Assembly: GCA_945865815.1 (NCBI GenBank)
Contig: CAMBFR010000043.1
Span: forward strand, 1-32,851
Reading direction: 5' to 3'
From: Candidatus Sulfopaludibacter sp. SbA3
GTDB lineage: Bacteria; Acidobacteriota; Terriglobia; 20CM-2-55-15
Length of the DNA stretch: 32,851 bases
A model generated the notes under the pieces. It did no database searches. It was not told the DNA's origin and worked only from the letters and a program-made list of their open reading frames with translations. A program made the position numbers and the translations under genes. This document shows positions 17,199 through 32,259 of this stretch, in pieces (position 1 is the first letter of the stretch; each line of letters starts with the position of its first letter).

Positions 17199-19103
17199 CT
17201 ATAGAATCAGCCGATCTTCTCCCACCCTTCGAGTGACCCGTTGCCGATCCAAATACTCCAGCAGCGGGATTGCGTACTTTCTGGACACTCCGGTCAGTTC
17301 CTTGAATTCTCCGACTCCGAGTTTTGGATTTTTTGCTTTCATCGATCGAATGTCGGAAATCATCTTGTCCATGACCGTGCGATCGATGAACATTTCTTCG
17401 GTGACCTTCACGAGCACGTTTTCCTTCACCATCAGCTGGATCAGCTTCCGCGCGGTATTTTTGTCGATCTTAAGACCGCCGATGAGTTCGTCGACACCCG
17501 GAGCCTGCAGCCCCACGGACCGGATCTTGCCAATGATCTGGTTTCGCATGGCCTCTTCATCGGTCTTCAGCGTCACCCTCCGGCCAAACTCAAAAATGAC
17601 GTCCTGAACGCCGGCGATCTTCTTATCCGCGGCCAATTGGTCCATTGCAGTCTGAAAAACCAGATTCGGCGCGTCCGCGAAAATGCGTGTCTTCAGCTCC
17701 TCGCGGCTTATGCCTTGTACGAGCGGGTTCGCCTGATGGTATCGCTTCACTTCGTTGACGGCGCGTGTCAACAGCTCGTTGAACAAGGGCGCCGAAATAA
17801 CGGTGAGCGGGTTTTCTCCGAGAATGCGGACACGGCCGGTTTTCGCAAGGTTCAGAATTCTCTCTCGCGCCCGATCCGGAATCATGCCGAGGCGCCCGAC
17901 AAGTTGCTTCAGTTCGGCGGTTTGAGTTCCTGCTTCCTCGACCAGGGCCGCCAAACGGTCTTCGGGAGATCCGTCCCTGAGCGCCTTGAGGGTATTGAGA
18001 ACGGTCACATCCGAACGCCTGCGCTTCTTCGGCAGGTAATCCAGAATCTGGCCGCCTCCGATGGTGATCATCGGCGAATACTGGCGAAGGATGAACCGGT
18101 CGGAGGGCAGGGCGAACGCCGGCTCTTCAAGTCGAATCTGGGCAAATGACGATTTGCCCGGCTCCAGACGATCCTGGCCGACCAGCACAACGTAACCCAT
18201 GAGTTCGACCGTCCCCACGTGAAATCGAATTCTCTTTCGCAGTTGTATGGGCCCGGGCGCCGACGGAAGCAGTTCGATATGGCAGTCGAACATGGATGTC
18301 GGCTGAAAGTAGCCCGGGGTTGTCAGGACCATGCCGCGCTGGATGTCGGAGACGTCGATGCCCTGAAGGTTCAGCGCGGTACGCTGGCCGGCCCGCGCCT
18401 CATCGGACATGTGGCCATGGACTTGAATGCCGCGGACTCGCGCGACCCGTTGTGTTGGAAGAATTTCGACTTCCTGGTCCCTCCGGACCTGGCCTGAAAT
18501 GAGCGTGCCGGTAACGACGGTTCCAAATCCCTTCATCGTGAAACATCGATCGATGGGAAGGCGGAACAATTCCGCTGCATCTTTGGGTTCGACCTTTGCG
18601 GCAAAATCACGCAGGACGTCCACGAGCTGAGGTATGCCCTCCCGCGTCAGGGAGCTCACCCGAAGGATCGGCGAATTCTCCAGGAACGAACCCTTGAGGA
18701 ACTCGCGAACTTCCATTTCAACCAGGTCGACCATATCCGGCTCAACGTTATCGATCTTCGTGAGGACGGTTATTCCCCTCTTGATGTGGAGCAGCGAGCA
18801 GATGTCGAGGTGCTCGCGCGTCTGAGGCATGATCGATTCATCCGCCGCAATGACCAGCATGACCATATCGATTCCGCCGACGCCGGCAAGCATGTTCTTA
18901 ATGAACCGCTCGTGCCCGGGAACATCGACAAATCCGATCGTCGTCTGCGGATCGAGCTGAAGGTTCGCAAAACCGATATCGATGGTAATGCCGCGTTCCT
19001 TCTCCTCCTTCAGGCGATCCGCATCGATGCCGGTCAGTGCCTTGACGAGCGCCGTCTTGCCATGGTCGATGTGCCCTGCTGTACCTACGATAATGTGCGG
19101 CAT
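17199..19103 (-). CDS. selB: Selenocysteine-specific translation elongation factor SelB
   Basis: SelB delivers Sec-tRNA to ribosomes at UGA codons followed by a SECIS hairpin. The 634-residue protein has the GTPase motifs: [11 protein letters not shown] at 7-17, [13 protein letters not shown], and TKID. EF-Tu-like domains 2 and 3 follow. The C-terminus has winged-helix repeats that bind the SECIS (for example [20 protein letters not shown] and [20 protein letters not shown]), with the usual end [13 protein letters not shown]. It overlaps maf by 19 bases. No selA, selD or tRNA-Sec gene is seen in the window. Its presence supports reading the tandem UGA at 31321-31326 as selenocysteine. Confidence 0.95.
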
Positions 19104-30575: not shown

Positions 30576-31061
30576 TTATTGAGCCGACGCTTTGAAGGCC
30601 AGGACTTTCAACTCCATCGGACTCTGGCGGTCGTTGAGTATCCCCTCAATTGTCCCGGACGTCGCGGAGGGAACCTTTGGAGCATTGGCAGCGGCGGCGA
30701 GCAAAAATTTGTCCTTGCCAGCGACGAAGAACTGCTTTCCACCCTCGTCCTGCACCCGGCCTTTGGCGCTGATCTGGAATTGCGTAATTCCCACCTTTAG
30801 CGGGTCCAGAACTTTCCGAATCTCTGCCGGAAGGAACGGTGCGCCGGGCTTGTAGGCAATCATGATCGACTCATTGGACCGGCTGATCGTGACCTTGTCG
30901 ACACCCGTCATGCGTCGCAGGTTGACCTCGGAAACTGCGGCGCAAACACCGCAGGAAATTCCGGTCGTGCGCATCGCGGCCTTCTCGACTTGAGCGAATA
31001 CTGGAATGGCGGACGCCAGAACCAGCGACGACAGCAGCAGTATCTGTTTTTGGAGTTTCAT
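30576..31061 (-). CDS. Exported heavy-metal-associated domain protein (MerP-like)
   Basis: A 161-residue protein with a signal peptide (residues 1-23, ending VFA) and an HMA domain whose metal-binding motif is Cys37-Gly-Val-Cys40 (TTGISCGVCAA). It continues with VSEVNLRRMTGVDKVTISRS as in MerP and metallochaperones. The last 60 residues are an extension of unknown role. It should bind a soft metal ion in the periplasm. It lies ten bases after the MerT-like gene, with GAAGGAAA as ribosome binding site, so the two are co-transcribed as MerT and MerP usually are. An in-frame ATG 48 bases upstream lies inside the preceding gene. Confidence 0.8.
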   Translation of the reverse strand: MKLQKQILLLSSLVLASAIPVFAQVEKAAMRTTGISCGVCAAVSEVNLRRMTGVDKVTISRSNESIMIAYKPGAPFLPAEIRKVLDPLKVGITQFQISAKGRVQDEGGKQFFVAGKDKFLLAAAANAPKVPSATSGTIEGILNDRQSPMELKVLAFKASAQ

Positions 31062-31071
31062 CTTTTTTCCT

Positions 31072-31389
31072 TCATCGATATCGAATCGATAGAAAAACCC
31101 AGCCACCAACCATCAAGACGTTCATCAATATGCTAACCCCGAGAATCGCCTTGATTCCCCAGGTACGCATCGTTGGCGGACGACTGCGCACTATCCATAC
31201 CTGGTATGCAAGCGCCCCGACCGCCATTGTAAAGAAAAGCGGCTGAAGGCGCTCCAGCCAAATCAGACACGCACTAATAAACGAGAATGCGCCCAGTCCT
31301 GCCAGGACCGGAGCAATCACTCATCAGCTGGGCGTAAGCAGGGCTGCAACGATTGAAAGCACTCCAGCCCTCTTCGGATCGATTGTCAT
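31072..31389 (-). CDS. MerT-like membrane protein with two adjacent UGA codons, probable Sec-Sec selenoprotein
   Basis: From ATG 31389 the frame reads MTIDPKRAGVLSIVAALLTPS, then TGA-TGA (codons 22 and 23, 31326-31321), then VIAPVLAGLGAFSFISACLI and LERLQPLFFTMAVGALAYQV, ending in another membrane helix; 105 residues in all. MerT proteins have a first helix ending in a Cys-Cys pair, then a Gly-Pro-Leu-type segment, then a L-E-x-x-R-P-L-F stretch. Here the two UGA codons occupy the Cys-Cys place. Read as selenocysteine, the protein is a complete three-helix MerT. Bases 31293-31311 can form a SECIS-like hairpin and selB is in the window. Without recoding, only an N-terminally cut 82-residue protein from GTG 31320 could be made. 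The ribosome binding site is weak. Confidence 0.75.
31293..31311 (-). promoter_or_regulatory. SECIS-like hairpin downstream of the tandem UGA
   Basis: Beginning nine bases after the second UGA, CCGGTCCT-GGC-AGGACTGG forms an eight-base-pair stem with one G-U pair and a GGC loop. Bacterial SECIS elements lie inside the coding region shortly after the UGA, with G in the apical loop to contact SelB. Loop bases 18-20 after the second UGA fit that spacing. Confidence 0.6.
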
Positions 31390-31435: not shown

Positions 31436-32194
31436 CTATCCGCCTTGAAGCCGAACCAGCGACTCTTTCACGCTCGGAGATTTCCCCGCTTCGACATCGG
31501 TGCGCCGAAGCTGGTGGAATTTTGTAAGAATGTCATTCGCGCCGGCGAGCACCTTGATCCGTTCTGAATACTCCCCGATTCGCGCGCCGGGCAGCGCCCA
31601 AAGCGCGAAATCATCGGTGAGCACGTTCAGATAAGCGCGCGCTCCGCAGCAACCCAGGCTCAGCGCGGGTTTTCCGGTATTGATGGCTTGCGGAATTACC
31701 GCACAGGCAGGGCGGCCGAGAGCCGGTGGCACACCAGGCTCCACCTGTTGGACCGCCTCTGTGATGGCCAGGCTTTGCCGGGAATTCGCGAATAACAGAA
31801 CTGCGCTCGGAGCCACCGGAGTGGAGGCAAGCGGAGCGTACACGACGTATTTCGCCTCGTCCTTCAACACGGGGATGCCGGGAATATCTTCGGGACGAAC
31901 ATAGCCGAGATCTCCGAAGACTTTCAGGCAGTCATTCAAGTTCTCCTGCTGCGCGGCTGTCGCAAGCGGCATGTGATGCGTGTACATACCGACGACGCAG
32001 TTGTTATGGTCGTTCGGGGAGGTTACGAGAGCGCCCTGGGCTCCCCATTCCCAGAACACGCAGCCGGCGGCGGCCGGCTTTGACGGCCCCGTCACCCCCT
32101 GGGGCGGCTTGTCGGTCATGCAAACGGCGACGGGAGCAACCCGAAGCCCGAGCGAATCTGTAAGAACCTTGGCGATCGCGGAATAGTCACTCAT
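31436..32194 (-). CDS. DUF169 family protein
   Basis: A 252-residue cytoplasmic protein that I place in DUF169. It begins MSDYSAIAKVLTDSLGLRVA and has a cysteine in AAAGCVFWEWGAQGALVT, the motif NNCVVGMYTHHM, and LSLGCCGARAYL toward the end. Members are found with redox and metal genes but have no settled function. I start at ATG 32194; the GTG one codon earlier is also possible, and GGGAG precedes both. The MerT-like gene starts 46 bases after its stop on the same strand, so a shared transcript is plausible. Its cysteines might bind metal or haem, but that is a guess. Confidence 0.75.
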   Translation of the reverse strand: MSDYSAIAKVLTDSLGLRVAPVAVCMTDKPPQGVTGPSKPAAAGCVFWEWGAQGALVTSPNDHNNCVVGMYTHHMPLATAAQQENLNDCLKVFGDLGYVRPEDIPGIPVLKDEAKYVVYAPLASTPVAPSAVLLFANSRQSLAITEAVQQVEPGVPPALGRPACAVIPQAINTGKPALSLGCCGARAYLNVLTDDFALWALPGARIGEYSERIKVLAGANDILTKFHQLRRTDVEAGKSPSVKESLVRLQGG

Positions 32195-32259
32195 CACAAT
32201 TCTCCCTATTGATTTATGAAAGGCAAAACTCAGCCAACAATGGATGTGTGAATGGAGAT

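Follow-up and report, generated by a model that had tools for sequence, protein, structure and literature searches.

Tandem in-frame UGA codons at the Cys-Cys position of a MerT-like membrane protein: a predicted vicinal selenocysteine pair

In the genome of Candidatus Sulfopaludibacter sp. SbA3 (Acidobacteriota), a gene for a small MerT-like membrane protein contains two consecutive in-frame TGA codons, located precisely where MerT proteins have a vicinal Cys-Cys pair. The stretch of DNA analysed, referred to hereafter as the window, is 32,851 nucleotides long (contig CAMBFR010000043.1). Based on comparisons of sequence, we consider it highly probable that the product is a tandem-Sec, MerT-like protein that would function as a soft-metal relay together with an HMA partner; Sec insertion at both codons, the relay, and the metal are inferred. 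The initial proposal that a Sec pair takes the place of the MerT Cys-Cys is thereby supported at the level of sequence, while insertion of Sec as such remains inferred. A more specific reading, which we regard as quite probable, is that both UGAs specify Sec through a single SECIS hairpin. This would create a vicinal Sec-Sec pair, serving either as a soft-metal ligand or as a diselenide switch, in a MerT-like transporter encoded in a two-gene unit whose second product is, in some genomes, a predicted selenoprotein as well.

The MerT-like gene occupies positions 31072..31389 on the minus strand, and its 106-codon frame consists of 105 residues and a stop. Codon 22 (31324..31326) and codon 23 (31321..31323), both on the minus strand, are the two TGAs, each a predicted Sec; the terminating codon, i.e., codon 106 (31074-31072, minus strand), is also TGA. 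With TGA read as Sec (U), the translation is MTIDPKRAGVLSIVAALLTPSUUVIAPVLAGLG...IRYR. The initial annotation had placed a TGA-TGA pair at 31326-31321 inside a MerT-like frame. This assignment was confirmed, the frame being read through on the minus strand.

Homologues were found in 9 of 61 genomes of relatives, with E-values from 1e-62 to 5e-29 and exactly two TGAs in each case. Of 399 genomes sampled from the class, 10 carry the tandem-TGA gene, one of these being from a further family; among 396 sampled from the phylum, one more homologue came to light, from another class. Each of these searches includes the copy in the window; the total is 11 distinct genomes, which span four families (f1, f4, f6 and f72). 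The homologues are 53-81% identical to the window protein and come from genomes as close as the same genus and as distant as another class of the phylum. Both TGAs are present in all 11, with no further internal stop, and the bases TGATGA and the subsequent GTG are identical in 11/11 sequences, as is TGATGAGTG. Neither a Cys-Cys nor a one-Sec intermediate was found within the family in the genomes searched, and a search of 38 genomes of the class of G517 revealed no additional tandem-TGA member.

If known from one genome alone, two such stops would look no different in a pseudogene or as a result of a sequencing or assembly error. However, the same two stops are found in 11 separate assemblies, with no other lesions and with low dN/dS on both sides of the pair. 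Specifically, the median dN/dS over sequence pairs is 0.16 in codons 1-21, where 36 of 55 pairs were usable and the rest saturated, and 0.22 in codons 34-106. Selection thus acts on codons 1-21 at the protein level and in the frame of the downstream part, which rules out a decayed gene. Because both TGAs are kept in 11/11 sequences and their flanks are under purifying selection, chance stops and sequencing errors are excluded as well: the double in-frame TGA is real. Pseudogene and sequencing error are refuted by 11 independent conserved copies, and we give them essentially no credence. The expectations raised at the outset are also borne out in this respect. That is, two chance stops were deemed unlikely, and every homologue has exactly these two and no other; the pair was not to be an error that resequencing would remove, and it is identical in 11 assemblies; and other UGA-UGA homologues, once sought, were found in ten further genomes with the same double TGA.

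Ordinary Cys-Cys MerT proteins exist in the class (L023-L027), and they feature the motif ASxCCxGP where the tandem family has TPSUUVxP. A profile of the tandem-UGA family was aligned with five MerT proteins using hhalign, resulting in a probability of 97.9 and an E-value of 4e-13 over 59 columns. In this alignment U22-U23 is opposite the Cys-Cys of MerT, with no gap at the pair, and the spacing between the UU pair and the VLAGLG stretch equals that of the Cys-Cys pair in L025. The claim that MerT can be followed across the UGA pair in the same frame therefore holds. The relationship is distant, with Cys relatives of the family at E-values of about 1e-4. The Pfam MerT model (PF02411) scores the tandem-UGA protein at 15.3 bits, under its cut-off of 32.9, and the MerT models of NCBIfam match it weakly. 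In a small tree with few, distant Cys sequences, the separation between the 11 UU proteins and the Cys forms is fully supported; this division would be as expected for a single origin.

According to the model reviewed in PMC5715351, Cys24-Cys25 in the first helix of MerT takes Hg(II) from Cys33/Cys36 of MerP, and the ion is then transferred to Cys76/Cys82. We looked for this cytoplasmic pair (Cys76/Cys82 in Tn21 MerT) in the tandem-UGA family and found no Cys at residues 64-90 in any member; there is one invariant Cys, at residue 41. With respect to the three transmembrane helices of MerT, an AlphaFold model of the protein, of low confidence (mean pLDDT of 63) and given no weight in the interpretation, includes helices at 5-18, 22-41, 43-69 and 77-104. 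A Foldseek comparison of this low-confidence model with the PDB gave no informative match, and no relative of the tandem-UGA protein was found among the sequences of solved structures.

The alignment with MerT also bears on whether the locus contains one gene or two. A 21-residue leader ending at the double stop could be followed by an 82-residue membrane protein starting at GTG, for example through termination-reinitiation; indeed, GTG is directly behind TGATGA in every sequence, and the 82-aa frame is present in the list of open reading frames. However, purifying selection acts on the first 21 codons, which correspond in frame to helix 1 of MerT, and such coding selection counts against two separate genes. 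The pair, moreover, coincides exactly with the Cys-Cys that is essential in MerT. Nor is there ribosome-binding-like pairing before the GTG: the duplex energy there is +0.6 to -2.5, whereas upstream of the ATG it is -2.4 to -6.9. A restart would also leave unexplained a frozen hairpin and the UxxC form of the neighboring protein, both of which are described below. We thus consider two genes to be very improbable, and favor a single gene in which both UGAs are decoded, putatively as Sec.

The hairpin in question, a putative bSECIS element, is located at 31293..31311 on the minus strand, and consists of an 8-bp stem, CCGGTCCT/AGGACTGG, with an apical loop GGC (31303-31301). This loop is 20 nt past the first UGA and 17 nt past the second, and these distances are the same in 11/11 sequences. 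The published bSECIS model specifies a loop of 3-9 nt, a stem of 4-16 bp, a G in the first two loop positions, a spacing of 16-37 nt, and an MFE of at most -7.5 (PMC13188914). The hairpin meets this model for both UGAs, with folding energies of -10.6 or below for the segments of the 11 sequences. The 8-bp stem can be formed in 11/11 sequences, with 100% of cells paired. One of its pairs is A-U in eight sequences and C-G in three, and another has changed on one side only, from A-U to G-U; these changes may reflect a single evolutionary event. Synonymous sites in the stem region are frozen, with a median dS of 0.25 in codons 24-33, as opposed to 1.43 downstream. The codons for V24 (GTG), V28 (GTC), L29 (CTG), A30 (GCA) and G31 (GGA) are invariant in 11/11 sequences. 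Among columns with an invariant residue, the codon is fixed in 5/7 inside the hairpin region and in 1/20 outside it (Fisher p = 0.0014).

A SECIS-like hairpin after the TGA pair had been noted at the outset, and it is indeed present and strictly conserved. Its mere presence, though, is weak evidence, because under a similar rule a bSECIS-like hairpin arises somewhere in range in 23-44% of synonymous recodings, used as a control; hence, only its conservation was counted. Relative to synonymous recodings, the regional folding energy is not unusual (z from -2.0 to +0.7), and total folding energy, not being significant in this comparison, was dropped as evidence for a SECIS. Rfam gave no match at the gathering score in the window.

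The machinery for Sec insertion is encoded in the same genome. selB, the gene for the Sec-specific elongation factor, is found in the window itself (17199..19103, minus strand; TIGR00475, 387 bits, cut-off 242), as had been reported. This nearness is however incidental, since selB is 12 kb away and is not beside the tandem-TGA gene in any other locus; it acts in trans and is outside the transcription unit of the MerT-like gene. Proximity of selB as a sign of a shared unit was rejected for lack of an adjoining selB elsewhere. The remaining components whose presence had been anticipated, namely selA, selD and tRNA-Sec, were found in addition to selB. The tRNA-Sec is on contig C16 (69.9 bits; ARAGORN tRNA-SeC, anticodon TCA) and selA is on C13. 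The selD gene (L038, G000:C15:15603-16520, minus strand) has one in-frame TGA at the expected Sec site (SAGUAGK) and a hairpin comparable to that of the MerT-like gene, with a GG loop 18 nt after the TGA. The SelD of this genome is thus itself a predicted selenoprotein.

tRNA-Sec is found in all 11 genomes, the ten others scoring 69-79 bits, well above the next matches. selA was identified in 8/10 class genomes with the tandem-TGA gene; it was not found at an E-value of 1e-60 in G001 and G006 (81% and 88% complete), both of which have tRNA-Sec. As 290/399 class genomes have selA, its presence is non-discriminating.

DNA cannot reveal the identity of the residue inserted. The UGAs might be read as another residue, i.e., Trp or Cys via a suppressor or a mischarged tRNA-Sec, or only one of them might be read as Sec; in the latter case, the 17 nt spacing of the second UGA is nearer to the 18 nt in the selD gene than the 20 nt of the first. 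Both spacings, however, are within the published range of 16-37 nt, and the Cys relatives point to either Sec or Cys. The MerT-like gene, moreover, ends at UGA, so UGA is not generally reassigned; with SelB, SelA and tRNA-Sec also present, genome-wide reassignment was rejected. We therefore see only a small chance for another residue or a single Sec. Sec at both codons nevertheless remains an inference, for which there is no protein-level evidence.

The gene for a secreted MerP/HMA-like metal-binding protein (30576..31061, minus strand) begins 10 bp downstream of the MerT-like gene in the window. It encodes a signal peptide, the motif GISCGVC, i.e., the Cys form, and a conserved C-terminal extension. 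A secreted protein of this kind, with GIS/TCxxC and the C-terminal extension, is the next gene in 10/11 loci; L044 (in G009) is the sole locus without a MerP-like partner downstream. The best NCBIfam match of the partner is the UxxU metal-binding (seleno)protein, followed by MerP, both under cut-off. In three loci the first Cys of the partner's motif is replaced by an in-frame TGA (L047:4472-4077, L049:1439-1029 and L052:8140-7736, all on the minus strand). There, the motif is GITUAAC or GITUPSC (UxxC), and behind it is a stem capped by an AUGGA loop. The MerP-like partner in these three genomes is thus predicted to be a second selenoprotein beside the tandem-UGA gene.

Beyond the MerP-like gene, neighbors are shared only with the nearest genome, G001 (DUF169 and a glycosyltransferase). 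The DUF169 protein, encoded directly upstream (31436-32197, minus strand), is common only to this same-genus genome, where it is 88% identical. Since neighbors are otherwise unshared, the unit consists of the MerT-like and MerP-like genes, without merA beside them. No merR was recognized beside the tandem-UGA gene at these loci. None of the 11 genomes has a MerA over the curated cut-off of TIGR02053 (0/11), and 13 matches of the MerA family, upon inspection, all proved to be without the C-terminal Cys-Cys. With no MerA found at the curated level, Hg(II) reduction of the classical kind is unlikely, and Hg(II) as the metal bound, which had been suggested initially along with other soft metals, is not supported.

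The mechanism we propose is as follows. Both metal-ligand Cys of the first helix would be replaced by Sec, resulting in a vicinal Sec22-Sec23 pair in an inner-membrane, MerT-related protein. SelB and Sec-tRNA would decode both UGAs, aided by the one downstream hairpin; how it might serve both is not established. Outside the membrane, the HMA motif of the secreted partner, which is CxxC or, in certain relatives, UxxC, would catch a soft metal ion. The HMA protein may then pass this ion to the selenolate pair, from where it would be moved across or into the membrane, although there is no evidence of transport. Soft-metal binding by the Sec-Sec pair is a deduction from what the Cys pair does in MerT and from the HMA partner; alternatively, a diselenide might have a structural or redox role.

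Sec is costly, and the ribosome must outcompete termination at each UGA; a short membrane protein would thus not be expected to have two of them consecutively. That the pair is retained across different families and more than one class of the phylum means that it repays this cost. The tandem-UGA gene offers a natural system in which to test how SelB and a single SECIS deal with adjacent UGAs, and also whether selenium is used to bind metal instead of for redox catalysis. A further implication is that soft metals may be handled by a selenium-based pathway without MerA. Gene callers will miss or shorten such genes.

No adjacent Sec-Sec in a bacterial protein was found in the literature searched; Zhang and Gladyshev 2007 and Haft and Tolstoy 2025 were outside its scope and might show UU, and the priority of the tandem-Sec MerT form is therefore not certain. 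MerT-related selenoproteins are themselves known as predictions. A Sec-containing 'putative mercuric transport protein' has been described in Carboxydothermus (ABB16073.1) and in GOS sequences (PMC9312934, PMC2398784, PMC13188914), and the MerT selenoproteins predicted earlier have one Sec, in the motif C/SxxU (PMC13188914). The protein described here is likewise a MerT-related predicted selenoprotein, but with two adjacent Sec instead of one. NF045683, the NCBIfam MerT/CopZ fusion-like heavy metal transport selenoprotein, similarly combines MerT-like and HMA/CopZ-like parts, with a proposed role in heavy-metal handling; it is however a single fusion protein, whereas here there are two separate genes. 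When this model was compared with the MerT-like part, 4/10 members matched, with a best E-value of 0.0021, far under cut-off.

NF041115, the UxxU metal-binding (seleno)protein for which two Sec are known, is the best match of the downstream HMA protein, which has Sec in its motif in three relatives. The HMA partner differs from it in having CGVC in the window and UxxC in those relatives, and in being longer, with a C-terminal extension; its scores are 30-46 bits, against a cut-off of 95 bits. NF033556, the MerTP fusion (e.g., Adhaeribacter swui, WP_185269809.1), also features MerT and MerP jointly, and is 42% identical over 67 aa; unlike the pair of proteins described here, it is fused, contains Cys only, and is one residue shorter from the Cys-Cys pair to the PVLA stretch. 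The local BLAST alignment to this Bacteroidota MerTP slips by one at the Cys-Cys pair. On the A. swui plasmid (NZ_CP055154.1; L081:2462-3291), the gene for the Cys-type MerTP adjoins one for a GDCCVxC domain (seleno)protein. It is also beside genes for an ArsR-family regulator and a heavy-metal P-type ATPase, a further link between a MerT relative and a selenoprotein family.

Lastly, the tandem-UGA protein resembles MerT (PF02411; Tn21/Tn501) in being a small helical membrane protein with a vicinal ligand pair in the first helix, in the spacing from this pair to an xxxxVLAGLG-like stretch, and in that its gene adjoins that of a MerP-like HMA protein. It differs from MerT in having UGA-UGA in place of Cys24-Cys25 and no Cys76/Cys82 pair, and its locus differs from mer loci in that neither merR nor merA is beside the gene.
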